Origin: Lachnospiraceae bacterium
Lineage (GTDB): Bacteria; Bacillota; Clostridia; Lachnospirales; Lachnospiraceae
NCBI GenBank assembly: GCA_014804645.1
Contig: JAAUZI010000013.1
Span: forward strand, 88,605-152,604
Length of the DNA stretch: 64,000 nucleotides
Reading direction: 5' to 3'
Below, in pieces: positions 35,988-50,953 of the stretch (positions are counted from its first letter, which is position 1; each line of letters opens with the position of its first letter). The notes under the pieces were generated by a model that worked only from the letters and a program-made list of their open reading frames with translations, made no database searches and was not told the origin of the DNA. Position numbers and translations under genes: made by a program.

Positions 35988-36018
35988 TGTACACCACCTT
36001 TTTTCTTTGTGCTATGAT
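35988..36018 (+). promoter_or_regulatory. candidate MerR-controlled promoter with 19-bp spacer
   Basis: TGTACA (35988-35993) and TATGAT (36013-36018, with an extended TGC) are separated by 19 bp, the over-long spacer typical of MerR targets. ACCACCTTT (35992-36000) and AAAGGTGGT (36033-36041) form an inverted repeat that would pair with the ribosome site in the RNA. The -35 match is only 4 of 6. Confidence 0.45.
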
Positions 36019-36046
36019 TGGCAAAAAGAGAGAAAGGTGGTTTTTT

Positions 36047-37882
36047 ATGCGGTTTATGAAAAATACTGTTTTCAAGAATTATAGATTTATGTTAAAGACA
36101 ATTTGCAAGGCTTCCGCATCACGGGTATGGCTGAATATATTTTTTACGGTTGTAAACGATCTGTTTTCAATATTCTACAATGTGCTCTTTTTTGCATATT
36201 TTATGGATGCGGTGGAAAAAGGGAAAAGTATCGCTGCAATCAGTAAGGTATTAATTGTTTTCATTTTGATCAACATTGTATTTGAAATATCGAATTCCTA
36301 TTATAGACAGGCGTATATTCCCAAAAATGATGTTAAGCTTTCGCTGTTTTTTAAGAACATGATATATAAGAAAATCATGACAATTGACATAGAATGCTTT
36401 GATAACCCGGAATATTACGATAATGTAACTTTTGCGTTGAATGATTTATTTAACAGAGTGAACAGTATCTTAAATAATATAGTTCAGTTCATTTCCCATT
36501 CATGCTGTGTTATTGTGCTGATCGGATATTTTGCGCAGATTGATTTTGCCATTGTATTGATATCTCTTATCTCTGTATTGACAGGATTGTTTTTTGAACC
36601 CGTTATTAATAAGTACAGATATCGCTATACGAATGAGAGCCTCAAATATCAACGAAAATATGATTATGTGAAAAGAATTTCCATTCAGGCAGAATGCGCC
36701 GGGGAGTTAAGAACCACGAATGTGAAAAACGTTCTGAATAAAATGCTTGATGATGCATTTAGGGGACTAAAGGCGTTGCTTAAAAAGTATTACAGAAAAA
36801 TAACAGTGCTTGACAGCGTTCAAGTCTTTTTCGGATTTGGAATTGTATCCTGTGTTACAACGCTCATCTCGATACATAGAATAGTCGTTGATAAAACGGT
36901 AACAATTGCAGTGTTCCTGCCCCTGATGGGGGCGATAGCGCAGTTTACCTGGAGAGCGTCTTCGGTGATAAGCTGTTTTACCGGTATTTTGAATGACAAT
37001 ATCTACTTAAATAAATTCAATGAATTCTACCGGTATGAATCAAAGGTTGTATCACGTAAGGAGGAAATGGTGGCTGTATCTTTCAGCGGAATTAAGATAG
37101 AGCATCTATATTTCAAATACAGTGAAAGTGATAATTATACCTTGAAAGATATATGCATGGAAATCCGGCCGAAACAAAAGATTGCATTGGTTGGGTATAA
37201 TGGAGCGGGAAAATCGACACTGATCAATCTGATTTTGCGTCTGTACGATCCAGATCAGGGCAGCATCACTTATAATGATAAGAATATTTGTGATTACAAT
37301 GTAAAGAACTATCGCAGCAAATATGGGATTGTTTTTCAGGACATAAATGTGTATGCAGCAACCATCGGCCAAAATATTGCGATGGATACGAAGGTTTATT
37401 CGGATGAAGAAATGCAAAATGTTATGAGTTCACTTCGTCTGAAAGAAAAGATAAACAGTTATGAAGGTGGGTTTAGCACCAAACTGACCCATGAATTATC
37501 TGATTCAGGTGAGATGCTTTCTATTGGTCAGTGCCAGTGTTTGGCACTTGCAAGAATCTTTATCGACCCGGAGAAGCAGCTCTACATTTTGGACGAGCCT
37601 ACCAGCGCACTTGATCCTATTGCGGAAGAAGAAATTTTTGAGACGATTAACAGTTATTTGGCAGATAAGACAGTTATATATATCTCTCATAGATTTTCGG
37701 CATCTAAAATAGCTGACAAAATTTATTTCATGGAGAAGGGACAAATTGTCGAGCAGGGGACGCATGATGAGTTGATTCTTCAAAGCGGAAAATATGCATA
37801 TATGTTCAATTTGCAGGCGAAATACTATAGAGACGAGACAGAAACTGCATTGAATGAGGCGGGCAAATGGGGGTTATCATGA
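36047..37882 (+). CDS. ABC half-exporter, first subunit of a heterodimer
   Basis: 611 residues from the ATG at 36047 behind AAAGGTGG. N-terminal membrane domain (about 20-330) and an ATPase with Walker A GYNGAGKST, Walker B YILDEPTSALD and H-loop ISHRFS. The signature is LSIGQCQCLALAR, in which the second Gly of LSGGQ is Ile, so the composite site it contributes to is degenerate. That, and the coupled second half-transporter, argue for a heterodimer. AT-rich relative to the MerR gene. The substrate is unknown; related exporters sit in antibiotic and peptide resistance loci. Confidence 0.88.
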   Translation: MRFMKNTVFKNYRFMLKTICKASASRVWLNIFFTVVNDLFSIFYNVLFFAYFMDAVEKGKSIAAISKVLIVFILINIVFEISNSYYRQAYIPKNDVKLSLFFKNMIYKKIMTIDIECFDNPEYYDNVTFALNDLFNRVNSILNNIVQFISHSCCVIVLIGYFAQIDFAIVLISLISVLTGLFFEPVINKYRYRYTNESLKYQRKYDYVKRISIQAECAGELRTTNVKNVLNKMLDDAFRGLKALLKKYYRKITVLDSVQVFFGFGIVSCVTTLISIHRIVVDKTVTIAVFLPLMGAIAQFTWRASSVISCFTGILNDNIYLNKFNEFYRYESKVVSRKEEMVAVSFSGIKIEHLYFKYSESDNYTLKDICMEIRPKQKIALVGYNGAGKSTLINLILRLYDPDQGSITYNDKNICDYNVKNYRSKYGIVFQDINVYAATIGQNIAMDTKVYSDEEMQNVMSSLRLKEKINSYEGGFSTKLTHELSDSGEMLSIGQCQCLALARIFIDPEKQLYILDEPTSALDPIAEEEIFETINSYLADKTVIYISHRFSASKIADKIYFMEKGQIVEQGTHDELILQSGKYAYMFNLQAKYYRDETETALNEAGKWGLS

Positions 37883-39690
37883 AAAAAGTAATACATAATA
37901 ATTTGTATATGTTGAAAATATTTTTTAGAGCAGTTCCGTTGTATTCTGTAGGCTTGACATTGCTGATTGTGGCCAGGAGCGTATTGTTCAATACCGTGGG
38001 AAATGTTCTGTTCATACAGTATATTGTTAAGTCGGTAGAATTTGCTATTGTTCATCCTGAGGAAACACAGAAAACTTTGACGAAGTTGATTGTTGTGGCG
38101 TGTGTATATTATGGGCTGGTACTTCTGTTTAATACCGTCATCGAGGGAATATTTCATAATAGTTTGACGAAAAACGCAGAGATCAAGATCAATCATATTT
38201 TTTCAAAAATGATGTTTGAGAAGTCCAGTTCGATCGATCTTGGCTGCTATGACGACCAGAAGTATTATAATGATCTGGTTGCTGCCAACAATGAATCCAA
38301 TAACAGGGCTTGGAACACTTACAGGAATTTTGTCAATTTGATTGAAAACTTATCGGTATTGCTCTCGTTGTTTTATATTATCAGTTCTTTGGATTTTGTT
38401 GTTTTTGTTCTGGCGGTTGTGATTAACGTTCTCTCCTTTTTGTATCAGATTAAGCTTAATAAAATTAACGGTGAAATTTATGACAAAACGATGCCCTATA
38501 ATAAAGAAATCGACTACGCAAATCGTATGTTTTTCTTAAAGCAAAATGCTAAGGATATTAAGATGACAAATATTGGCAGTGTTTTGTTTGATAAATTGAC
38601 CTCTTCTTCAAAAAAGCTCAGTGATATCAATGCTGCTTACGGAGCAAAAAAGACTTTTGTATGCACCGGCGATAATCTGATGAAGAAAATCCTTGGAGAC
38701 TTCGTGACTCTATTTTATCTTGCCTACATGGTACTTGTGAAATGCGCATATACCTTTGATGTGATGACTGCTTTGTGGAACGCTTACGGTACAATAAAAG
38801 GGAACATGAATAATTTCGTTAATTCGATAAAGGAGTTACATAACAACAGCATTTACATTGATAAGTTCATTCACTTCATGGAAATTGAAAACAGCATTGT
38901 ATTGGATAAGGGCTTGAAAAGCAATGCCGATACACCGATCACGATTGAGTTTGTGGATGTGTCTTTCTCCTATGACGGAGAACACAAAATTTTAGACGAA
39001 TTGAATTTAAAAATCAAAGCGAATGAAAAAGTGGCAATTGTTGGTAATAATGGTGCCGGAAAGAGTACGCTTGTTAAGCTTTTGCTGAGACTGTATGATC
39101 CTGACAATGGCAAAATTCTGGTAAATGGAATGGATATTCGGGACTATGATGTGGAGTTTTATCGAAAGAACATATGCAGTATATTGGTTCAAAACTTCCA
39201 GCTGTTTGCGTTAACGCTGTATGAGAACGTCAAAATGGATATTGTTGACAAAAAAGCGGAAGGTGCTAGCTTGGATAAGGCGCTTAATATGGTCGGGCTA
39301 AGCGATGTGGTAGAGCGCCTGCCTGATAAGGGGGACAGCAATTATTCAAGAGAATTCGATAGCGATGGTGTGGTATTCTCAGGGGGACAAAAACAAAAAC
39401 TGGCACTGGCAAGAGTGTTGTTAAGTGATAAAAGAATGGTGATTCTGGATGAGCCATCGAGTGCGTTGGACCCTAAAGCCGAGAGTGAATTTAATGAACT
39501 TGTGTTCAATATGCTGCCAGAGAGGACTATTGTTATCATTTCTCATAGGTTGTCGACAACTAAAATGGCGGATAGGATCATTCTGATTCAAAATGGAAGG
39601 GTGGCTGAAGATGGTTCGCATAACGAGTTAATGGAAAACAATGGCATATACGCTAAAATGTTTGAGACGCAGTCCAGGAGGTACAGATAA
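37879..39690 (+). CDS. ABC half-exporter, second subunit of a heterodimer
   Basis: 603 residues. The ATG at 37879 overlaps the previous stop (ATGA), so the two are translated together. Membrane domain about 10-330; ATPase with Walker A GNNGAGKST, canonical signature FSGGQKQKLALAR, Walker B VILDEPSSALD and H-loop ISHRLS. It provides the intact signature that its partner lacks. Its own stop overlaps the start of the UvrA2-like gene (TAATG), so the three proteins are likely to be made in matched amounts. Confidence 0.9.
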   Translation: MKKVIHNNLYMLKIFFRAVPLYSVGLTLLIVARSVLFNTVGNVLFIQYIVKSVEFAIVHPEETQKTLTKLIVVACVYYGLVLLFNTVIEGIFHNSLTKNAEIKINHIFSKMMFEKSSSIDLGCYDDQKYYNDLVAANNESNNRAWNTYRNFVNLIENLSVLLSLFYIISSLDFVVFVLAVVINVLSFLYQIKLNKINGEIYDKTMPYNKEIDYANRMFFLKQNAKDIKMTNIGSVLFDKLTSSSKKLSDINAAYGAKKTFVCTGDNLMKKILGDFVTLFYLAYMVLVKCAYTFDVMTALWNAYGTIKGNMNNFVNSIKELHNNSIYIDKFIHFMEIENSIVLDKGLKSNADTPITIEFVDVSFSYDGEHKILDELNLKIKANEKVAIVGNNGAGKSTLVKLLLRLYDPDNGKILVNGMDIRDYDVEFYRKNICSILVQNFQLFALTLYENVKMDIVDKKAEGASLDKALNMVGLSDVVERLPDKGDSNYSREFDSDGVVFSGGQKQKLALARVLLSDKRMVILDEPSSALDPKAESEFNELVFNMLPERTIVIISHRLSTTKMADRIILIQNGRVAEDGSHNELMENNGIYAKMFETQSRRYR

Positions 39691-42218
39691 TGGGTGAAAG
39701 TTTGCAGAAATATATAACTATTAAAGGCGCAAAAGAAAATAATTTAAAAAATATCAGTTTGAAGATTCCCCGAAATAAGATTACTGCAGTGGTTGGAGTT
39801 TCGGGGTCGGGTAAGTCCTCTCTTATAATAGATATATTGCAGAAAGAAAGCATGCGGCAGCTTTTTGATACGATGGGGGGATGCCAGGTGAAAAAACCTT
39901 TAGTAGACAGCATTGAAGGATTGTCCCCGGTAATATATATAGACCAACACATCACGAACCGGAATCCCAGGTCCACCGTTGGGACGGCAACAGATATTCT
40001 TAAGGCGATCAGGCTGTTGTTTGCTCAGGTAGGAGTTCGTGAATGCGGCCATTGCGGAAACACAATCCATCCATTGATTTCAGAGTATGAGAACGATTTT
40101 GACTGGTCTGATGACGTGGATAATCCGTCCGAGATTTTAAGAGATAAATGTTCTGTCTGTGGACATGAGATCAGAAAATTCCGGATGTCCGATTTTTCAT
40201 ATAATACCCCTAACGGCGCATGCCCGAAATGTCATGGCATCGGCCAGATATATAGCGTCAATAGAAGCGTTACGATTGATGAAGAGCTGTCGATTTATGA
40301 CGGGGCTTTCAAGAGCTGGGGGAAAAATGAGATCAAGGTTTATGTTCCCATAGTTCTTGCGGCAAGCAAATACTATGGATTCGAGTTTGATCCGAATGAA
40401 AAAATAAAGAATCTGTCACCGGAAACAAAAGCGTTTCTCTATTACGGTAATAGAGATCTACGTTTTACGAAATATTTCCCCAATGTGAAAAGTCCGAACG
40501 AAAAGAAATATTTGTTTATGGGATTCATAAACGACATGGAAAGCACATATGAGAAATTATTGGACAATGAGGGCTGGACAGAGCGTTTTGGCAGGTTTAT
40601 GACTCGGGTCGAGTGCTCAGAATGCAATGGCAGCAGGATGTCAAAAGACCTTGAAATGGTGAAGGTTAATGGTCTGTCAATTAATCAATTGATGCTATAT
40701 TCACTGGGGGAAATACGAAGTTGGATATTGGGGTACAAAGAATATAGTGAAAATCGTATTGAGTATAAGCTTGTCGGAGAAGTTGTAGAATTGATCATAG
40801 GAAGGCTGAACGAACTGATTGGATTAGGGTTGGGGTATTTATCGTTATCGAGATCCATTATTTCTCTTTCGTTTGGTGAACATCAGCGACTGCGTGTGGC
40901 GAATATTTTAGGCTCCAATTTAACGGAAATGATTTACATATTTGATGAGCCGACCATAGGATTGCATCCTGCTGACAATGATATGATTATTAATGCCATT
41001 AACGTACTTAAGAATAAAGGCAACACGATCATTATCATAGAGCATGACGTGGACTTGATCAGAAAAACAGATTATATTGTGGAAATCGGTCCGGCAGCAG
41101 GCACTGACGGCGGACAATTGCTGTTTGCCGGAACTATGGACGAATTCTCAAAGTCAGAAAATTCCATAATGAAAAACTATTTACTGAAGAAGTACGATCC
41201 CTCGAAAGAAATAGATTGTACGCAAGGTGACTGCATAAAAATAAGAAATGCCCGGAAACACAATCTTAAAAGTATCAGTGTCAATATTGCATTAAATAAA
41301 TTAAATGTGATTACAGGCGTTTCCGGAAGCGGAAAATCATCTTTGATTTTTGATGTACTCGTAGAGGCGCTTGAAAACTACTATAAGAAGGGCATTAAGG
41401 ACGAAAATATTGAAGGGTATGAGAAGAATGATAATGTCATTTGTATGTCTCAGAAGCCAATAAGTAAGGGAGCAAGATCTAATATAGCAACATATACGGA
41501 TATCTACACAGATATTCGAAAGCTATTTGAAAAACAGCCGAAAGCCAAAATATTAGGATTGGATAAGAAAGATTTCTCGTTTAACGTCAGAGGCGGACGG
41601 TGTGAACACTGTGAAGGACAGGGAACGGTTGAACTAAACATGGTATTAATGCCGACTATGGAAGTCCAGTGTCCGGTATGTAAAGGGAAACGTTTTAATA
41701 AAAATGTCCTGGAAGTTAAATATACGGACAAGAGTATCACGGATATCTTAAACACCACTTGTGATGACGCATTGCCTTTATTTCGCGATGTGCCCGGTAT
41801 ATACAGGGTTCTGAAAGCAATGAGTGATATCGGATTGGGCTATTTGACGATCGGACATCAATTAAATCAATTGTCCGGAGGAGAATGCCAGAGAATCAGA
41901 CTTGTCAGGGAGCTTTCCCAAAATAAAAAGGGTAAGAATCTGTATGTGTTTGACGAACCTACTACGGGTTTGCATCCGAGAGATATAGAGAAATTAGTCT
42001 TGATTATGAAGAGGCTGCGGCAAAACGGTCATACATTGGTTGTGATAGAGCATAACCTTGATCTTATGCTTGAGGCTGACCACATAATTGATTTAGGGAC
42101 CGGCGGAGGAGCTGAAGGCGGCAGGCTGGTTTACCAGGGAAGTGTTGGCGGCTTGTTGATGAGACCGGAGTCGCGTACAGGCAGTTGCATCAAGGAGTAT
42201 ATTTCGCAGAACAGGTAG
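39690..42218 (+). CDS. UvrA2-like ATPase (class II UvrA, resistance type)
   Basis: 842 residues with two ABC modules: Walker A GVSGSGKSS near 31-39 and again near 545, ABC signatures LSFGEHQRL and LSGGECQRI, and Walker B IYIFDEPTIGLHP and LYVFDEPTTGLHP. Zinc ligands include CGHCG, CSVCG, CPKCHG and CEHCEG/CPVCKG. It is about 100 residues shorter than canonical UvrA, consistent with loss of the UvrB-binding domain, as in UvrA2 and DrrC proteins that protect against DNA-binding drugs. It is translationally coupled to two ABC exporters, a drug-resistance layout. Confidence 0.9.
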   Translation: MGESLQKYITIKGAKENNLKNISLKIPRNKITAVVGVSGSGKSSLIIDILQKESMRQLFDTMGGCQVKKPLVDSIEGLSPVIYIDQHITNRNPRSTVGTATDILKAIRLLFAQVGVRECGHCGNTIHPLISEYENDFDWSDDVDNPSEILRDKCSVCGHEIRKFRMSDFSYNTPNGACPKCHGIGQIYSVNRSVTIDEELSIYDGAFKSWGKNEIKVYVPIVLAASKYYGFEFDPNEKIKNLSPETKAFLYYGNRDLRFTKYFPNVKSPNEKKYLFMGFINDMESTYEKLLDNEGWTERFGRFMTRVECSECNGSRMSKDLEMVKVNGLSINQLMLYSLGEIRSWILGYKEYSENRIEYKLVGEVVELIIGRLNELIGLGLGYLSLSRSIISLSFGEHQRLRVANILGSNLTEMIYIFDEPTIGLHPADNDMIINAINVLKNKGNTIIIIEHDVDLIRKTDYIVEIGPAAGTDGGQLLFAGTMDEFSKSENSIMKNYLLKKYDPSKEIDCTQGDCIKIRNARKHNLKSISVNIALNKLNVITGVSGSGKSSLIFDVLVEALENYYKKGIKDENIEGYEKNDNVICMSQKPISKGARSNIATYTDIYTDIRKLFEKQPKAKILGLDKKDFSFNVRGGRCEHCEGQGTVELNMVLMPTMEVQCPVCKGKRFNKNVLEVKYTDKSITDILNTTCDDALPLFRDVPGIYRVLKAMSDIGLGYLTIGHQLNQLSGGECQRIRLVRELSQNKKGKNLYVFDEPTTGLHPRDIEKLVLIMKRLRQNGHTLVVIEHNLDLMLEADHIIDLGTGGGAEGGRLVYQGSVGGLLMRPESRTGSCIKEYISQNR

Positions 42219-42309: not shown

Positions 42310-43392
42310 ATGGCGCAAGGGAAACAGCTATTGCGGTTGAAAATTGCTGTCGGCATGACGGCGGCAATCATAACCGGCACTGCAATGGGAGCGCTGACGG
42401 CGTTTGTGTGTACTATTTTGGCGGGAAGTCTGCTGCTCGGAGTGGGGATTGCCCTGGGTGCGGCTGCCGCGACTGCCGGGATGGTATCCGTGGGAGCCAT
42501 TGCAGTTCATGACGCGAGGAATGGGAAGGAGACGGCGAAGGGAGACTATATTCGCCGGGCAGCGCTCTCTGCGGTGACGATCCGTACAATATCAGAGCCG
42601 CTATTGTTTGGGGCAAAACAGCTTACTGATAAGCTGGCTCATAAGGAGAGGGAGACAGGGAAAGCTTTTCTCCGAAGATATGAGTTGGCGACGGTCTGCT
42701 GCTGGGGAATGACACACATTCCTAATCGATGGATGATTAATATTGTAAAGCTGTGCGCCATTGCCAAGGTCTCCGAGGAACAAATTGAAAAAAATGCGGT
42801 TATTAACGGAGAAAAGCTGGGGAAACCGCAGGGCTATATAGCGGGGCGCTATATAGAAAATCAGGCTGAATGGGCGGAGATTCGATATGGCTCATCTACA
42901 ATGGCCTTCTCCGGATGTGAAATCATGGCGGTCTATAACGCATTGCTTGCTTTGGGAAAAGAGATGACGCCGCGGGATATGGTGGAACTGATCAGCGCCT
43001 TCGAGAGAATGGGAGCGGTGCTGCGAGGGAAGTGGGGAAGCTCCTACTATGCGGTCTATAATTATTTTGTGGAGCATGGGTTTGAAACGACTTTTGCCTG
43101 CTCCCGGAATATGAAACGCATAAATGAGATAGGGGAGTGCTGCGATACGGTTGTCCTCACTGCCTACAATAATCAATACGATATTCGCAGCATGATACAT
43201 ACCATAAGCGTTACCAAAGATGAAAACGGCCATTATACGATGCACAATGCGTATAAAAAGAACAGAGCCGGGAAGTATGCCGCATACGGCGGGGATATGC
43301 AGATTGAATCTTTACAGGAGGTTATAAATCTCATGTCTCCCAACGGGCTGGCATCGCCTATATGCGTTATCGGAATAAGCAATCCTGAATAG
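42310..43392 (+). CDS. membrane-anchored papain-like protein of unknown function
   Basis: 360 residues from the ATG at 42310, behind GGAGGAG. Residues about 10-65 hold two glycine/alanine-rich hydrophobic helices (VGMTAAIITGTAMGALTAF and an LLLGVGIALGAAAATAGMV segment). The C-terminal half has a Cys in FSGCEIMAVYNALLALG and later His in SMIHTISV and TMHNAY, the order seen in C39/BtrH-like papain folds. I do not recognise a named family. It lies upstream of the peptide/ABC locus in the same orientation, but separated from it by a distinct strong promoter; a role as the maturation or immunity factor of the peptide is a guess. Confidence 0.7.
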   Translation: MAQGKQLLRLKIAVGMTAAIITGTAMGALTAFVCTILAGSLLLGVGIALGAAAATAGMVSVGAIAVHDARNGKETAKGDYIRRAALSAVTIRTISEPLLFGAKQLTDKLAHKERETGKAFLRRYELATVCCWGMTHIPNRWMINIVKLCAIAKVSEEQIEKNAVINGEKLGKPQGYIAGRYIENQAEWAEIRYGSSTMAFSGCEIMAVYNALLALGKEMTPRDMVELISAFERMGAVLRGKWGSSYYAVYNYFVEHGFETTFACSRNMKRINEIGECCDTVVLTAYNNQYDIRSMIHTISVTKDENGHYTMHNAYKKNRAGKYAAYGGDMQIESLQEVINLMSPNGLASPICVIGISNPE

Positions 43393-43435: not shown

Positions 43436-43464
43436 TTGACAGATGTCGGAAAAGCGTATATAGT
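43436..43464 (+). promoter_or_regulatory. near-consensus sigma-A promoter of the 26-residue peptide gene
   Basis: A perfect TTGACA (43436-43441), a 17-bp spacer and TATAGT (43459-43464). This is the best sigma-A match found in the window. It lies about 43 bases upstream of the peptide ATG and implies high expression. Confidence 0.85.
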
Positions 43465-43506
43465 ACTAACTGTAGCAAAAAAATTGAAGGAAAGGAGGCA
43501 ATCAAC

Positions 43507-43587
43507 ATGTCAAACAGATTTAATAGTGTAAAGAGAATGAATCATGATATAAATGGTATTGTCTCCCGAGGGTATGCTGCGCCGTAG
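43507..43587 (+). CDS. 26-residue peptide gene upstream of the ABC locus
   Basis: ATG at 43507, TAG at 43585-43587. A perfect AAGGAGG (43492-43498) sits 8 bases before the ATG and the best promoter of the window precedes it. The peptide starts MSNRFNSVKRMNHDINGIVS and ends RGYAAP; it is basic, has no Cys, no signal peptide and no hydrophobic helix. Strong expression signals on such a short frame argue that it is real. It might be a leader peptide for attenuation, or a precursor exported by the ABC proteins that follow. I recognise no peptide family. Confidence 0.65.
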   Translation: MSNRFNSVKRMNHDINGIVSRGYAAP

Positions 43588-43625
43588 TGCGGATTTGATT
43601 GGGCAGTGTATATATATAGATGAAC

Positions 43626-43661
43626 GAAGGGCATGACATACATTTGTAGGTTATGCCTTTT
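43626..43661 (+). terminator. hairpin with short T run between peptide gene and exporter
   Basis: GGCATGAC (43630-43637) pairs with GTTATGCC (43650-43657), extended inside by TAC/GTA and outside by AA/TT pairs, and followed by TTTTC. A partial terminator here would give much peptide mRNA and less exporter mRNA, as in many bacteriocin operons. Alternatively it is a regulated attenuator. Confidence 0.55.
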
Positions 43662-43742
43662 CTGTGTCTGAAAATATATTCGGGAGAGGATGTTTTACAT
43701 CCATTATTGAATAATGCAGCGATATGCAGAAATGAGGAAGAA

Positions 43743-46058
43743 ATGAATTTACCGGGAAGTTTTACGAATGTCATACGGAAGTATGGCATCGACAAAAAGG
43801 ATGTAATATTTGCCGCCACGGGAGATTTGGATGAGGAGCAGCGGTTTGCAGACTCCATCGTGGCGCTGACAAAGGAAAAGCTGATCGTTGCCAGATACCC
43901 CTATAGAGAAAAGCAGGAATATAGGCTGGGCGGCTATAACAGCTGGTCCATGGAGCAGGAGAAAAGCATGGAGGAGCCGGCGGTAATGCTGTTCGAGCTG
44001 TCCAAGATGGAGAAACTGGAGGTGATCCGTCAGGTCAGCACGGGTATTCTGATGGGACGCATTGACGGCGTGGACAGATATCTGTGTCAGTTCTCCAACA
44101 CCAGGATGGAAGCCTTTATGCGGATCGGCCGACTGCTGGAGAAAATGAAAAAGGAAGAGGAGATCACCCAGGAGGATCTGGACGTGAAACGGGGAAAGGA
44201 ATGCTGCCCCAAATGCGGTATGATCTACCCGGATCAGGAGCGCAAGGTCTGTCCCAAATGTATGGATAAAGGGTCTATCCTGCTAAGGGTGGTGTCCTAC
44301 TTCAAGCCATACAAGTTCAGACTGATGGTTATCATGTTCTGCTATTTGGCTACGGCAGGATTGAATCTGGTGTGGCCCTATCTCAGCGGCACAGTGCTGT
44401 ATGACAAGGTTTTGGAGCGGGATGAGGAATTTCTGGCTATGCTGCACCTGCCCACGGGCCGTTTTGTGCTGGCGCTGGGGATTCTGGTGGTGGTCATGAT
44501 CGGCACCAAGATACTGCTGCAGGGGCTGGGCATTCTGCAGGGTGCTTTGACGGCCCATATTGCCCCGGAAGTGGTTGCAAAGTTAAAAAGCCAGGTATTT
44601 GACTCCATGGGAAAGCTGTCCATCAGCTTTTTCACCAGAAGGCAGACCGGAGGTCTGATGACCCGTGTGTCCGATGATGCGGAGGAGATTTCCAGCTTTT
44701 TTATTGATGGTATCCCCTACTTTTTTATCAATGTAGGCACGATTATCGCCACTTGTATCATTATGTTTATTCTCAATCCTCTGCTGGCAATGGCCTCCGT
44801 GGTGCTGATGCCCATTCTGTTCTTCATCAGCTATCTGCTGATGCCCAGATTGTGGCACTATTTCGGTAAGCGTCATCGGGCCAACCGAAGGCTCAACAGT
44901 CAGATGAATGAGAATTTTACCGGAGCCAGAGTGGTCAAGGCATTCGGACAGGAAGAGCAGGAAATGTCCCGTTTCACAAAAAACAACGCCAAGGTGCGGG
45001 ATGCAGAGTTGGATGTATCCAGATATGACTGCAAATTTTCCGCTTTGTATATCTTTGTGGAAGATATGCTTACCTTTCTGGTATGGGCAGTGGGCGGAGC
45101 GCTGATTATCAGTGGCTCCAATATGGAGCTGGGCCTGCTGATTACCTTCAGCGGCTATGTGGGACAGTTGAAGGGGCCTCTGGAATTTATGTCCAGAATC
45201 ATTCGCTGGTATACCAATGCCATGAACTCGGCACAGAGGCTATTTGAGATTATTGACGCGGTGCCGGAGGTGAGGGAAGCGGCCAATCCTGTGCGGCCCC
45301 AACAGCTGCGGGGAGAGATTACGCTGGAGCATGTGACCTTTGGATATGAGCCGAATAAGCCTATTTTGAAAGATGTGAGTTTTCATGTGGAGGCCGGGGA
45401 GGTGCTGGGAATTGTGGGCCGCTCCGGGGCCGGAAAATCCACGCTAGTGAATCTGATCTCCCGCCTGTATGACACAGAGGAGGGACAGGTGCTGGTGGAT
45501 GGCGTCAATGTAAAGCAATACGGCTTTGCGGAACTGCGCAAGAATGTGTCCATGGTATCCCAGGAGACCTATATTTTCATGGGCACGGTGGCGGAGAATA
45601 TCGCCTATGCCAGGCCGGATGCAACCAGAGAGGAGATTATAAAGGCGGCGGTGCAGGCCAGCGCCCATGACTTTATCTGTAAGATGCCCCAGGGCTATGA
45701 TACGATTCTGGGTTCTTCCAACAGGTCGCTTTCCGGGGGAGAGAAACAGAGGATTTCCATTGCCAGAGCCATTCTGGCAGACCCCAAGATCCTGATTCTG
45801 GATGAGGCTACTTCGGCGGTGGATACAGAGACGGAGCTGGCAATTCAGAAATCTCTTGAACAGCTGGAAAAGGGAAGGACTGTTCTGTCCATTGCCCACC
45901 GGCTGTCCACATTGCGCAATGCCACGCACTTGATTGTGTTGGATGACGGCCGGGTGACGGAGTCGGGGACCCACGAGGAGTTGATGGCTTTGAAGGGGAC
46001 ATTTTATAAGCTGAGTGAATTGCAGACTAAGGCTTTGGCGATGCGCGGCTTGGAATAA
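43743..46058 (+). CDS. ABC exporter with N-terminal soluble domain and zinc ribbon
   Basis: 771 residues from the ATG at 43743 behind GAGGAAG. Residues 1-150 are a soluble beta-rich domain (IVALTKEKLIVARYPY, VMLFELSKMEKLEVI, PH-like). A zinc ribbon follows with C155, C158, C170 and C173. The exporter membrane domain spans about 185-500. The ATPase has Walker A GRSGAGKST, signature LSGGEKQRIS, Walker B ILILDEATSAVD and H-loop AHRLS. The same domain order recurs in the gene at 47475. Similar proteins sit beside DUF1854 proteins elsewhere. Substrate unknown. Confidence 0.9.
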   Translation: MNLPGSFTNVIRKYGIDKKDVIFAATGDLDEEQRFADSIVALTKEKLIVARYPYREKQEYRLGGYNSWSMEQEKSMEEPAVMLFELSKMEKLEVIRQVSTGILMGRIDGVDRYLCQFSNTRMEAFMRIGRLLEKMKKEEEITQEDLDVKRGKECCPKCGMIYPDQERKVCPKCMDKGSILLRVVSYFKPYKFRLMVIMFCYLATAGLNLVWPYLSGTVLYDKVLERDEEFLAMLHLPTGRFVLALGILVVVMIGTKILLQGLGILQGALTAHIAPEVVAKLKSQVFDSMGKLSISFFTRRQTGGLMTRVSDDAEEISSFFIDGIPYFFINVGTIIATCIIMFILNPLLAMASVVLMPILFFISYLLMPRLWHYFGKRHRANRRLNSQMNENFTGARVVKAFGQEEQEMSRFTKNNAKVRDAELDVSRYDCKFSALYIFVEDMLTFLVWAVGGALIISGSNMELGLLITFSGYVGQLKGPLEFMSRIIRWYTNAMNSAQRLFEIIDAVPEVREAANPVRPQQLRGEITLEHVTFGYEPNKPILKDVSFHVEAGEVLGIVGRSGAGKSTLVNLISRLYDTEEGQVLVDGVNVKQYGFAELRKNVSMVSQETYIFMGTVAENIAYARPDATREEIIKAAVQASAHDFICKMPQGYDTILGSSNRSLSGGEKQRISIARAILADPKILILDEATSAVDTETELAIQKSLEQLEKGRTVLSIAHRLSTLRNATHLIVLDDGRVTESGTHEELMALKGTFYKLSELQTKALAMRGLE

Positions 46059-46226: not shown

Positions 46227-46808
46227 ATGGAAGACAATAGAGAAAATGTTTTGCCGGATTTATTGGATTTGCAGGAGTTTGATGAGGAGGCTCTGAAAAA
46301 GGAGTCGGAGGAAGTGCTGCAGATGCGTATGCTGACGGCGGAGAACGCGGTCTTTACCCGCACGGAGGGAGGATTTCTGGCACTGGAGTTCGGGGAAAAG
46401 AAATACGACCGGGTGGGTGTGTACCTGACCTTTCCCCTGACGAATCCTCAGGAGTATATCTCCATTCGGGAGGCGGATGAGAAGGCTAAGGAGATCGGCA
46501 TGATCCGCTCGCTGAAGGATATGCCGAAGGATGTGCAGGACATGATACAGGAGCAGGTGCGTCTGCGCTATTTCATGCCTGTGATCCGCAAGGTTATGGA
46601 GGTCAAGGACGAGTACGGCTATGCCTACTGGCATGTGCAGACGGACTTTGGCAGCTGTCGTTTCACCACCCACATGGGAGGCGATGCCGTGGTGGCTCTG
46701 GGCGAGGCTCGCTACCAGATCACCGACATCGACGGCAACCGCTACGAGCTGCCCGACTTGTATGCTCTGACAGTGATGGAGCGCAAGAAACTGGATTTGT
46801 TTATTTAA
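46227..46808 (+). CDS. DUF1854-family protein
   Basis: 193 residues, soluble and acidic. Conserved-looking segments: YDRVGVYLTFPLTNPQEYIS, EIGMIRSLKDMPKD, and GYAYWHVQTDFGSCRFTTHM. I associate this with DUF1854, a small domain that elsewhere accompanies ABC transporters, including ones next to cyanophycin genes; no cyanophycin synthetase is in this window. Position between two ABC exporters suggests an accessory or regulatory subunit. AGAAAGGAAA site ahead of the ATG. Confidence 0.78.
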   Translation: MEDNRENVLPDLLDLQEFDEEALKKESEEVLQMRMLTAENAVFTRTEGGFLALEFGEKKYDRVGVYLTFPLTNPQEYISIREADEKAKEIGMIRSLKDMPKDVQDMIQEQVRLRYFMPVIRKVMEVKDEYGYAYWHVQTDFGSCRFTTHMGGDAVVALGEARYQITDIDGNRYELPDLYALTVMERKKLDLFI

Positions 46809-46825: not shown

Positions 46826-47461
46826 ATGAGGAGATTCGCAGTTATGCTATATCCTGACTTTTCCTTGCAGGAGATAACTTGCCTTACATCTGCATTGACA
46901 GTATGGTTTGGTGAGGAGATTGACTTTATTGCAAGTGAAAGCAAAGAATATCGGAGTGAAGATGGATTACGGATTTTACCGACAAAATCAACAGCCGATG
47001 CAAAGATAACGGATTATGACTGTGTAATTCTACCGGGAACAATTAATCCGCTCCCTGCGTTGTTTGATGAAAAATTGATTGAGTTTCTAAAAAATGGGAT
47101 CAATTCCGATGTTGTTTTTGCAGCTATATCTTCAGCTCCAATATTGTTATCCAAGGCAGGAATTCTTAACGGTAAAAAGTTTACCTCCGGCTATTTTATG
47201 CAAATGGCGGATACATTCCAATTTGTTGAAAAGGATAACTTTGTACACAAAGCAGTGGTAGAGGACGGGAATGTAATTACTGGGATAGGAATGTTTTTTA
47301 GAGAATTCGCGGAGACCGTATTAAAGAGATTTGATTATGACATTGGCAAAAACTTTATGCGTTACGCCCCGGAAGAATTCTCGGAAGATGAATTGACATT
47401 CTATTGGTCTGAGGATGAATATCAAGAATTTTTAGAAGAGCTAAAAGAGTATTCTATGTAA
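46826..47461 (+). CDS. DJ-1/PfpI-family protein lacking the usual cysteine
   Basis: 211 residues. DJ-1/PfpI flavodoxin-like fold: FAVMLYPDFSLQEI at the N-terminus, CVILPG at 66-71, and the nucleophile-elbow segment FAAISSAPILLSKAGIL. The position usually held by the reactive Cys (AICxxP) is Ser102. The protein may therefore bind rather than catalyse. It is AT-richer than the ABC and DUF1854 genes on either side and sits between them with good ribosome sites (GGAGGGAAC before, AAGGAG after), so it looks like an insertion that kept the operon intact. Confidence 0.85.
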   Translation: MRRFAVMLYPDFSLQEITCLTSALTVWFGEEIDFIASESKEYRSEDGLRILPTKSTADAKITDYDCVILPGTINPLPALFDEKLIEFLKNGINSDVVFAAISSAPILLSKAGILNGKKFTSGYFMQMADTFQFVEKDNFVHKAVVEDGNVITGIGMFFREFAETVLKRFDYDIGKNFMRYAPEEFSEDELTFYWSEDEYQEFLEELKEYSM

Positions 47462-47474
47462 GGAGCAATAATTC

Positions 47475-49709
47475 ATGAAACTATTATACACACTAAAGGA
47501 GTCCCAGCAGCAGGCATTGTCCCTCCGTGACGGCGAAACCATCTGGTACTGCGTTCCTGTGGATCTGGCCTTTGACAACGGGGCGCACAGTTCTCAGACC
47601 AGCTACACGGATCAGACGTGGATCGTTGTCACTGAGGATCGGTTGATAACTCTTCGGGGGGATGAGAAAACCTCCGAGCATCTGCTGGCAGACTGTGAAA
47701 AAATCAAATGTGAACATCAGGTGGGCTGTGGTATAGTGACCGTATTTCCCAAGGAAGGCCTGCCGGAATGTATAGCTCGTTTCTCCATGCGCCATATTAT
47801 TCGGGTGGCCTACGCTGTCCGGGGCGCCCAGACTCTGGTTCAGGCCAGGCAAGAAAATCAAAACCTCAAGATGGTCAGCCGGGTGGAGAGCCGGGAATAC
47901 GAGAAATATTGCGAGAAATGCGGCCGCGCCCTGCCGGGAACCAGCAAGTGCATGTATTGTGACGGCAAATCTGATTTACTGAAAAAATTTATGGCCCTGT
48001 GCGGAGAGTTCACCGGCAATCTGGTGGTGATCTCCCTACTGTTGGTGCTGCTGGCGGGAATCAACATGTTTAACCCCATGGTGCAACGGTATTTTATTGA
48101 CAATTCACTGACGGATGGTCAAGGCACTATGACAGACTTATGGCTTTTCATTGGTCTGACATTTGTATTGACGGTGGGCGGCATGGTTTGCTGGATTTAT
48201 CGCTACTGGCTTTGTGTCAAGCTGGGGGCTTCCCTGAGCATGAGTCTGCGTTCCAAGCTGTACTACAAGATACAGGTGCTGTCCTTGTCCTTTATCAACA
48301 ACCGTAAGCCCGGCGAACTAATGAACCGGGTGTCCAGAGACTCCAATCAGATCCGTGTGTTTATGCAGGATGTGTTCGGAGATATGTTCTCCACGCTGGT
48401 TACGATGATTGTATCTCTGGTTATGATGCTGATAATCAGTTGGAAGATGACCCTGCTGTCTCTGGTCTTTGTGGCGGCGGTGGTGGTATTTATTCGGATA
48501 TTCTGGCATCACATCCACACGATATTCCACAAGCAGTGGCTGCGGGCAGATGACCTCAGCAGCAATCTGCAGGATATTCTCTCTGGTATGCGTATTGTCA
48601 AATCCTTCGGAAAGGAGGAGCGGGAGAGCGCTCGATTTACGGAGAAGACAAGGGCTTTTGCTGCCATACAGAAAAAGAATGAAACTTTCTGGGCTGTATT
48701 CTTTCCCATAATGACTTTTCTGCTGGGGGTAGGCACCTATATTGCCATCTATTTCGGCGGTATACAGGTGCTGGACGGCAGCATGTCCGTGGGACAACTG
48801 GTGCAGTTTGTGACATATAGCGGCTATCTGTTCGGTCCCTTGAGCTGGATGACCCATCTGCCCAGAGAGGTGATGCAGATGCTGACCAGCTTAAATCGTA
48901 TCTACGACGTGCTGGATGAGGAGCCGATGCTGGCGGATAAGCCGGAGAGCAAGGCATTTCCCATACAGGGCGCATTCACCTTTGAGGATGTTTCCTTTGG
49001 ATATCAGACCTATGAGCCGGTACTGGAGCATATCTCTTTTGCCGTAAATCCGGGGGAGATGATCGGTCTGGTGGGAGCTTCCGGCACTGGTAAATCCACG
49101 CTGATCAATCTGATCATGCGCCTCTATGACGTGGATCAGGGGCGGATTACTCTGGATGGCTGTGATCTGCGAGATATACAGATGGAAAGTCTGCACTCCC
49201 AGATCGGTGTAGTATTGCAGGAGACATTCCTGTTTTCAGGCACTATTTTGGCTAATATCCGATTTGCCAAGCAGGATGCCACCCTGGAGGAGGTCATCAT
49301 GGCGGCCAGAGCGGCCAATGCCCATGATTTTATCTGCAAGACCCCGGACGGCTATAACACCTATGTGGGCGAACATGGCTACAATCTGTCCGGCGGCGAG
49401 AGACAGCGTATTGCTATTGCCAGGGCGATTTTGAATAATCCCCGGATACTGATTCTGGATGAGGCCACCTCGGCGTTGGATACGGAAAGCGAGTTTTTGA
49501 TACAACAGGCGCTGAATCGTCTGGTAAAGGGGAGAACCACCTTCGCCATTGCCCACCGCCTGTCAACGCTGCGGGATGCGGATCGTCTGGTAGTTATTGA
49601 CAAGCACGGCGTGGCCGAGATCGGCACACATAATGAACTGTTGGAAAAGCAGGGAATATACTATGGGCTGGTAAACGCACAGTTGCGGATGAGCAGTGGA
49701 GAGAAATAA
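47475..49709 (+). CDS. ABC exporter with N-terminal soluble domain and zinc ribbon (second copy)
   Basis: 744 residues. Soluble N-terminal domain (about 1-135, WIVVTEDRLITLRGDEKT resembling VALTKEKLIV of the first exporter), zinc ribbon with C146, C149, C159 and C162, membrane domain about 175-485, and ATPase with Walker A GASGTGKST, signature LSGGERQRIA, Walker B ILILDEATSALD, H-loop AHRLS. Both ATPases of the pair are canonical, so the two exporters may act as a symmetric heterodimer or as separate homodimers. A terminator follows. Confidence 0.92.
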   Translation: MKLLYTLKESQQQALSLRDGETIWYCVPVDLAFDNGAHSSQTSYTDQTWIVVTEDRLITLRGDEKTSEHLLADCEKIKCEHQVGCGIVTVFPKEGLPECIARFSMRHIIRVAYAVRGAQTLVQARQENQNLKMVSRVESREYEKYCEKCGRALPGTSKCMYCDGKSDLLKKFMALCGEFTGNLVVISLLLVLLAGINMFNPMVQRYFIDNSLTDGQGTMTDLWLFIGLTFVLTVGGMVCWIYRYWLCVKLGASLSMSLRSKLYYKIQVLSLSFINNRKPGELMNRVSRDSNQIRVFMQDVFGDMFSTLVTMIVSLVMMLIISWKMTLLSLVFVAAVVVFIRIFWHHIHTIFHKQWLRADDLSSNLQDILSGMRIVKSFGKEERESARFTEKTRAFAAIQKKNETFWAVFFPIMTFLLGVGTYIAIYFGGIQVLDGSMSVGQLVQFVTYSGYLFGPLSWMTHLPREVMQMLTSLNRIYDVLDEEPMLADKPESKAFPIQGAFTFEDVSFGYQTYEPVLEHISFAVNPGEMIGLVGASGTGKSTLINLIMRLYDVDQGRITLDGCDLRDIQMESLHSQIGVVLQETFLFSGTILANIRFAKQDATLEEVIMAARAANAHDFICKTPDGYNTYVGEHGYNLSGGERQRIAIARAILNNPRILILDEATSALDTESEFLIQQALNRLVKGRTTFAIAHRLSTLRDADRLVVIDKHGVAEIGTHNELLEKQGIYYGLVNAQLRMSSGEK

Positions 49710-49855: not shown

Positions 49856-50953
49856 TTATGCGGTTCTCATCTCCAATGCTTCCACTCTTTTGGATAGATC
49901 CTCATACATTTCTAACAGCAGGCTCACATTGCTGTCCTCAAGCTTAGTGATTCTATAGTATTGATTCAGCTCATCGACATTCTGCTGCAGTTTCTGGATC
50001 TGTCTTTCCAAAATGTTTCTTGTTCTCTCTAATTCATCTAAAATAAGGCTCTCTGACTTTCTCAGCTTTTTGTCGAGTTTGGCCTCCATCTTAGCCAGGT
50101 TCTTGTCGGCTCGTGCCTCTATTTTGGCCAGATTCTCAGCGGCTCGTGCCTCTATTTGGGCAAAATTCTCAGCGGCCCGTGCCTCTATTTGGGCAAAATT
50201 CTCAGCGGCCTGTGCCTCCATTTTGGCAAAATTCTCAGCGGCCTGTGCCTCCATTTTTGCTAGATTTTCGTCGGCTTTTTCCAGCATGTCGGAGCGATTC
50301 TGTGCACATTCAGCCTTTAATGCGGCCAGGCTCTCAGCGGCCCGCTCCTCCATCTTAGCCTGATTCTCAGCGGCTCGTGCCTCTATTTGGGCAAAATTCT
50401 CAGCGACCCGCTCCTCCACCTTGGCCAGGTTCTCAGCGGCCCGTGCCTCCATTTTGGCTAGATTTTCATCGGCTTTTTCCAGCATGTCAGAGCGATTCTG
50501 TGCACATTCAGCCTTTAATGCGGCCAGGTTCTCAGCGGCCCGCTCCTCCATCTTAGCCAGATTCTCAGCGGCTCGCTCCTCTACCTTGGCCAGATTCTCA
50601 GCAGCTCGTGCCTCTATTTTGGCAAAATTCTCATCGGCTCGCGCCTCTATTTTGGCAAAATTCTCAGCGGCCCGTGCCTCCATTTTGGCTAGATTTTCGT
50701 CGGCTTTTTCCAGCATGTCGGAGCGATTCTGCGCACATTCGGCCTTTAATGCGGCCAGGCTCTCAGCGGCCCGCTCCTCCATCTTAGCCTGATTCTCAGC
50801 GGCCCGTGCCTCTATTTTGGCAAAATTCTCAGCAGCCCTGACCTCCATAGCTGCCAAATTCCGCGCATTTTCAGCCTTCATCTCAGCCAAATTTCTTGCG
50901 GATATGGATTCCATCATTTCTTTAATAACGTCAAAATCTTTCTGTTCAAGCAT
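49856..50953 (-). CDS. 11-residue-repeat (hendecad) helical protein
   Basis: 365 residues from the ATG at 50953 behind GGGGAGG. Residues about 20-295 are tandem 11-residue units of the form AAENxAKxEAR. An 11-mer variant ALKAECAQNRS plus DMLEKADENLA recurs three times, with Lys at 70, 147 and 213, that is 7 and 6 units apart. The last 70 residues are a normal heptad coiled coil (LDELERTRNILERQIQKLQQNVDELNQ). No signal peptide or membrane helix. Hendecads form long helices in coiled coils, LEA-like or lipid-surface proteins. It may be a filament, a scaffold or a surface-associated helix; I do not know the function. Confidence 0.85.
   Translation of the reverse strand: MLEQKDFDVIKEMMESISARNLAEMKAENARNLAAMEVRAAENFAKIEARAAENQAKMEERAAESLAALKAECAQNRSDMLEKADENLAKMEARAAENFAKIEARADENFAKIEARAAENLAKVEERAAENLAKMEERAAENLAALKAECAQNRSDMLEKADENLAKMEARAAENLAKVEERVAENFAQIEARAAENQAKMEERAAESLAALKAECAQNRSDMLEKADENLAKMEAQAAENFAKMEAQAAENFAQIEARAAENFAQIEARAAENLAKIEARADKNLAKMEAKLDKKLRKSESLILDELERTRNILERQIQKLQQNVDELNQYYRITKLEDSNVSLLLEMYEDLSKRVEALEMRTA
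50066..50896 (-). repeat. 33-bp tandem repeats within the hendecad gene
   Basis: About 25 imperfect 33-bp units encode the 11-residue repeats, with longer higher-order copies of 231 and 198 bp marked by the ALKAEC-type variant. Copy number is likely to vary by slippage or recombination, always in frame because the unit is a multiple of three. Confidence 0.9.

Follow-up and report, generated by a model that had tools for sequence, protein, structure and literature searches.

The window, the whole 64,000-nucleotide stretch of Lachnospiraceae DNA analyzed here, carries on its plus strand a run of four genes headed by ABC1, a half-exporter of 771 amino acids (positions 43743 to 46058), followed by a DUF1854 protein (46227 to 46808, Pfam PF08909), a DJ-1/PfpI family protein (46826 to 47461, Pfam PF01965), and a second half-exporter of 744 amino acids, ABC2 (47475 to 49709). 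Both half-exporters match the Pfam families ABC_membrane and ABC_tran, and both have a CxxC-type stretch ahead of the membrane part (CPKCG..CPKC in ABC1, CEKCG..CMYC in ABC2) that looks zinc-ribbon-like by eye. An assignment to the cyanophycin-associated ABC/DUF1854 system was considered and rejected: against the models of that system (NF052233 and NF052234), the ABC proteins scored 561.5 and 515.8, below the NCBI curated cut-off of 880, the DUF1854 protein scored 79.2, below its cut-off of 150, and no cyanophycin synthetase in the window's genome scored over the cut-off.

Ahead of ABC1, on the plus strand, lies a block that begins with a promoter-like site, TTGACA-N17-TATAGT (43436 to 43464). 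As a preliminary description of this DNA had correctly read, a Shine-Dalgarno (SD) sequence, AAGGAGG (43492 to 43498), stands 8 nt before an ATG at 43507, and the frame that starts there ends after 26 codons with TAG (43585 to 43587), giving an open reading frame (ORF; 43507 to 43587) for a peptide without Cys. The same description ranked the promoter as the best in the window, which holds in that its score of 11/12 is the highest found, although three other plus strand sites (16792, 16940, and 31129) equal it. Among the window's 12 (A)AGGAGG-N5-10-ATG sites, the longest A-run belongs to the leader's AAAGGAGG. The leader SD, strand 1 (GGAGGCAAT, 43494 to 43502), is complementary to an anti-SD within the leader ORF, strand 2 (ATTGTCTCC, 43558 to 43566), with a pairing energy of −12.6 kcal/mol; the conserved stretch of this anti-SD region is TTGTCTCCCG (43559 to 43568). 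Downstream, RNAfold places a middle hairpin, P2, that contains the leader stop codon (43572 to 43611), and a terminator-like hairpin (43629 to 43657, −12.6 kcal/mol alone) is followed by TTTTCT. The tails of some hairpins, including this one, are only moderately T-rich. Beyond the hairpin, strand 5 (TCGGGAGAG, 43680 to 43688) is again complementary to strand 2.

ABC1 homologues at E values of 1e-100 or less were present in 75 of 99 relatives, and the nearest named records with the exporter gene are Lachnospiraceae, several of them entered as Acetatifactor. Genomes were searched with the pattern AAGGAGGCA-N44-74-TGYCTCCCG, and the reversed pattern served as control. Within the genus the pattern matched 42 of 138 genomes, once in each, and the control matched none. 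Two matches (L032 and L073) were dropped as chance, being without start codon and promoter, which left 40 leaders; the full block of promoter, strong SD, ATG, short ORF, anti-SD, and terminator-like hairpin is thus present in 40 of the 138 genomes. An 11/12 promoter starting with TTGACA was found in 38 of these leaders, and the ATG lies 7 to 10 nt past the SD in all 40. The ORF ends 20 to 31 nt beyond the start of the anti-SD in 37 leaders and 67 nt beyond it in two, while one meets the contig end. A hairpin ahead of T residues was recorded by script in 39 of 40; for the exception, L065, the wrong hairpin was chosen and a terminator is visible. An ABC1 homologue follows in 39 leaders, and the contig of the 40th ends.

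Beyond the genus, seven of 397 genomes of the family matched, the window's own included, against one match for the reversed pattern. Three of the six other matches (L074 to L076) have promoter, leader ORF, and exporter start; L077 to L079, where the script found no leader, were left out. Among named records, 77 of 80 loci were examined (L091, L153, and L155 were omitted, as the match stops short of the gene start), and 54 of the 77 have a leader: 49 plus L102, L103, L121, L127, and L130, which were added on further inspection. At L101, promoter, SD, ORF, and hairpin are present and the anti-SD is absent, and the upstream DNA of L081 is too short. The other 21 have the exporter gene without a recognised leader, one of them (L146) offering just 487 nt of upstream sequence; two leaderless loci, L139 and L159, carry a promoter-like site of 10/12 or 11/12 a short way 5′ of the exporter. 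Two leaders have a tRNA-Leu gene with anticodon aag immediately on their 5′ side (L008:907-990 and L009:947-1032); as no leader promoter was found in L009, its leader is possibly transcribed from the tRNA promoter. Together, these comparisons demonstrate a recurring arrangement of promoter-like site, SD, open ORF, SD:anti-SD complementarity, and terminator-like hairpin in a constant place before the exporter.

The SD:anti-SD helix (P1) was examined in 58 leaders whose SD and anti-SD had been gathered without using pairing; 57 have a CTCC core. In 56 of these 57, the three variable SD:anti-SD positions pair, in the combinations GCA:TGT (38 leaders), GCA:TGC (11), ACA:TGT (5), and GTA:TAC (2). 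The clearest two-sided change of the helix is that of L145 and L147, both with a 12/12 promoter, where GGAGGTA:TACCTCC replaces GGAGGCA:TGYCTCC. In alignment A1, 97.4% of P1 cells pair, compared with 36 to 60% in slid versions; the P1 covariation score on this alignment was not above that of shuffles, and five of eight pairs are invariant. At equilibrium, 36 of 38 leaders are predicted to form P1 with at least 5 of its 7 core pairs. The anatomy of an anti-antiterminator helix that a ribosome on the leader could disrupt is thus present, as judged by pairing in 56 of 57 leaders.

The leader ORF was compared across 57 distinct leaders (L009 and L062 were excluded because a promoter of 10/12 was not found, L062 lying near a contig end). 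An open frame in related loci had been anticipated and was seen in all 57, where 13.9 were expected by shuffling. Across these leaders no stop interrupts the ORF frame, whereas the other two frames contain 117 and 73 stops and are stop-free in only 2 and 15 leaders. This bears on the possibility that the block is a riboswitch-like structured leader that senses a small molecule or a protein, with ORF translation irrelevant. Such a leader would accord with the conservation of the SD:anti-SD helix, the middle hairpin, and the terminator, yet it leaves the frame that is always open, beside others in which stops are common, without a role; an Rfam search of the window gave no match at gathering score, and near the leader the single match at E values up to 5 was at chance level. 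We regard a riboswitch-like leader as quite improbable.

The open frame is not matched by conservation of the peptide. A bias towards synonymous change, which the preliminary description had predicted, does exist, but it is weak: pN/pS was 0.74 over 11 independent pairs, with changes at 58.3 of 419.8 nonsynonymous and 18.7 of 99.2 synonymous sites. The RGYAAP end, expected to be conserved, is absent from all 56 other leaders, the nearest being RGYAPL and RGYAVL. The anti-SD strand TTGYCTCCCG is kept in its nucleotides yet is read in three frames (in 42, 8, and 7 of the 57 leaders), so that the frame floats over it. By these comparisons, amino acid change in the leader peptide is hardly restrained. 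A short frame with strong expression signals, adjoining exporters, had suggested that the peptide might be the substrate of the exporters or a signal; the weak constraint, the floating frame, the variable end, and the loci that have exporters with no peptide all speak against both roles, and we give such a function very little credence. A bacteriocin or signalling-peptide precursor was likewise rejected, as the peptide sequence is not seen to be conserved by selection. Since the content of the peptide is nearly free, the act of translation itself is likely to be the signal, and leader translation as such, rather than the peptide sequence, is likely what is sensed.

Codon content offers a further reading, an attenuator that responds to arginine starvation. 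Of the codons for Arg, Lys, Leu, and Thr at positions 2 to 8, AGA was counted most often (43 uses); cyanophycin is a polymer of Arg and Asp, and the exporter and DUF1854 genes show similarity to families associated with it. In the leaders, however, Arg does not cluster and is not invariant, and the scores for those families fall under their cut-offs in a genome with no synthetase over the cut-off; arginine sensing is accordingly a very doubtful account of the leader. Positions 2 to 8 are also enriched in Arg/Lys-X-Arg/Lys, a type of motif at which ribosomes are described to arrest with ketolides and, less strictly, with macrolides (PMC8298421). It occurs in 26 of 57 leaders (20 of 39 when counted by peptide cluster), while two nucleotide shuffles averaged 8.8 and 10.6 and neither reached 26 in 500 trials; a control that shuffled residues 2 to 8 among themselves gave 16.9 leaders, so the excess over this control is smaller. 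The window's own peptide has no such motif in residues 2 to 8; the arrest motif is thus a hint about the family and not about the window locus.

An intrinsic terminator is present, as a predicted hairpin, between the leader ORF and the exporter gene. By the script's choice of hairpin (a second one in L102), 25 to 49 nt separate the hairpin's end from the exporter ATG in 12 of the 57 leaders; a further promoter would hardly fit there, so that exporter mRNA would arise by read-through. The same measurement weighs on the idea that the block is a separate small gene, encoding a peptide or a small RNA of ~190 nt, linked to the exporters by place only, whose C-rich anti-SD might target other SD sites in trans. 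Its own promoter-like site and terminator-like hairpin, and the conserved nucleotides of the anti-SD strand, would suit such a gene. A mere neighbour would not be expected to precede the same exporter gene in virtually every leader of the genus or to leave the exporter almost no space for a promoter past the hairpin, and the single pattern match per genome also counts against it; we consider a separate small gene unlikely.

How the terminator might be prevented from forming was addressed by folding. At equilibrium no antiterminator appeared, and the terminator formed with or without P1; an equilibrium antiterminator was therefore rejected, and one emerged solely when partial transcripts were folded. 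In these, the RNA ended after the 5′ arm of the hairpin, and the first codons were masked to mimic a parked ribosome. Pairing between the anti-SD and the terminator arm, at 5 or more expected pairs, was then predicted in 17 of 56 leaders, compared with 1 of 56 when the SD was free. The window gave 4.4 pairs masked and 0.03 with the SD free, under the cut of 5; its GTATTGTCTCCCG is common to 14 of the 17 leaders with a predicted antiterminator. Most leaders outside the window's clade lacked it in partial-transcript folding, and the strongest pairing partner 5′ of the terminator arm did not stand out from shuffles (mean z of +0.16 over 57 leaders). A shuffle test at 15 loci gave weak results, with p of 0.05 or less in 2 when the anti-SD was shuffled and in 6 when the arm was.

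Taken together, we propose that the 26-codon frame is probably the sensor ORF of a ribosome-mediated transcription attenuator for the ABC-DUF1854 exporter operon. The suggestion in the preliminary description that the frame is a leader controlling downstream expression is thereby supported, on the strength of the conserved leader anatomy before the exporter. In the absence of stress, ribosomes would finish the leader and leave, and the SD would pair with the anti-SD near the ORF end as an anti-antiterminator. With the SD so paired, the hairpin at 43629 to 43657 would form, and transcription would stop after ~190 nt. A ribosome stalled at the first codons, with a ribosome-targeting antibiotic as the most plausible cause, would cover the SD; the anti-SD, set free, could pair with the 5′ arm of the terminator and let RNA polymerase pass. 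In the read-through RNA, the anti-SD may pair with the strand at 43680 to 43688, leaving the leader SD open. The exporters would then be silent unless ribosomes are slowed while translating the leader, and the peptide would be a by-product.

The post-terminator strand was evaluated in the same 57 leaders. A CGGGAG-like motif lies 3′ of the terminator in 41 of them, a count made without a background rate. The flank of strand 5 fits the flank of its own anti-SD, with 61 contiguous pairs compared with 42.4 in permuted sets (0/5000), and the fit persisted when each distinct flank was counted once (27 rows; 39 pairs compared with 23.6, 0/5000). A looser count of the flank gave p = 0.0046, or 0.021 for distinct-flank rows. 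The energy of the strand 5:anti-SD duplex beat shuffles at p of 0.05 or less in 27 of 57 leaders, including the window (−19.1 kcal/mol, p = 0.005). When the whole read-through RNA was folded, strand 5 outcompeted the SD for the anti-SD in 34 of 57 leaders, and the two were about even in the window (3.6 and 3.5 pairs). Strand 5 as an opener of the exporter start was rejected as inconsistent across the leaders: opening rose by more than 0.1 in 12 of 57 and fell in 7, the window being among the latter (0.56 to 0.36). We conclude that a partner of the anti-SD beyond the terminator, with matching flanks, is conserved across loci, and it is a candidate element of the leader.

With a covariance model of the leader, hits at E values of 0.01 or less came from 11 of 295 genomes searched in the order, the window's genome included. 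In six of the ten other hits (L161 to L163 and L167 to L169), a similar leader and hairpin precede a tandem pair of half-exporters ~30% identical to ABC1; L164, L165, L166, and L170 were set aside, as they are not leader-like before exporter pairs. The exporter pair of L171 (the L167 locus) matches BmrC and BmrD (YheI and YheH) among many chains, with eukaryotic ABCB-type exporters scoring higher. A set of 34 BmrCD-like loci was assembled, 6 by the covariance model and 28 by protein search (L194, a duplicate of L174, and L206, which starts inside the gene, were left out), and leaders were picked without using pairing. A leader was found in 11 of the 34 (4 of 6 from the model and 7 of 28 from the protein search), and in 5 of these 11 a helix between the SD and a partner close to the end of the ORF reached p of 0.05 or less, although for one of the 5, L176, a stretch other than the anti-SD-like one forms the longest helix. 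As far as these alignments and foldings reach, BmrCD-like exporters of other genera are also preceded by leaders of this kind.

A broader version of the attenuator proposal, which we put forward as a tentative possibility, is that one anti-SD acts as a three-way switch in a family-wide exporter alarm of Lachnospiraceae, pairing with the SD (off), with the terminator arm (on), or with the post-terminator strand, which would lock the read-through RNA with an open leader. Ribosome stalling would then be coupled directly to exporter expression with no regulatory protein, and the device would be common to unrelated exporter families. If the attenuator reading is true, it would explain the regulation of the little-studied DUF1854-associated exporters in gut Lachnospiraceae, which would respond to translation inhibitors, and an SD:anti-SD leader with a terminator would be a signature for finding stress-induced exporters in commensals. 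It would also mean that a strongly signalled small ORF before exporters is not necessarily a bacteriocin.

Searches of the literature, mostly of papers outside subscription, found no paper naming DUF1854 and, in titles and abstracts, no description of a Lachnospiraceae leader-peptide attenuator like this one. Known systems resemble it in part. The bmrB leader of bmrCD in Bacillus subtilis, induced by erythromycin, lincomycin, and chloramphenicol, also has a leader ORF, with anti-antiterminator, antiterminator, and terminator all predicted, ahead of a heterodimeric multidrug ABC exporter; its ORF, however, has 53 codons and encloses the terminator, whereas that of the window has 26 and the terminator lies past the stop, and the window's anti-antiterminator uses the leader's own SD as one strand (PMC4191407). 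The cplR leader of Clostridioides difficile, induced by ribosome-targeting drugs, likewise has an upstream ORF (uORF) within a 5′ hairpin, an anti-SD element, and a terminator ahead of the main gene, but its uORF is three codons long (Met-Arg-Ile), the regulated gene encodes an ABC-F ribosome protection factor, and the main SD is inside the terminator (PMC10201436). The vmlR leader of B. subtilis also has a uORF within its anti-antiterminator, a pause hairpin in the middle, a terminator, and one further pairing formed on read-through only; it differs in its three-codon uORF, whose SD is outside the hairpin, and in that the read-through pairing opens the main SD of vmlR (PMC9226507), an effect that strand 5 did not consistently have. 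The patAB attenuator of Streptococcus pneumoniae is also terminator-based and ahead of an ABC exporter pair, and the accessible part of its description mentions no leader ORF (PMC4319486). In one survey, 205 genes for ABC transporters were counted among the candidates for attenuation (PMC2965389). The block would thus be a known type of regulation in a place where it has not been described, its anatomy being well supported and the proposed signal plausible on comparative grounds.

Other genes surround the locus. A UvrA-like protein of 842 amino acids (39690 to 42218) is encoded just 5′ of the leader block, right after two ABC half-exporter genes (36014 to 37882 and 37867 to 39690), and the gene adjoining the leader promoter on its 5′ side (42310 to 43392) encodes a 360-amino-acid protein without a Pfam or NCBIfam match. 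Past ABC2, the minus strand (49856 to 50953) encodes a protein of 365 amino acids that consists mostly of 33-base (11-residue) repeats.
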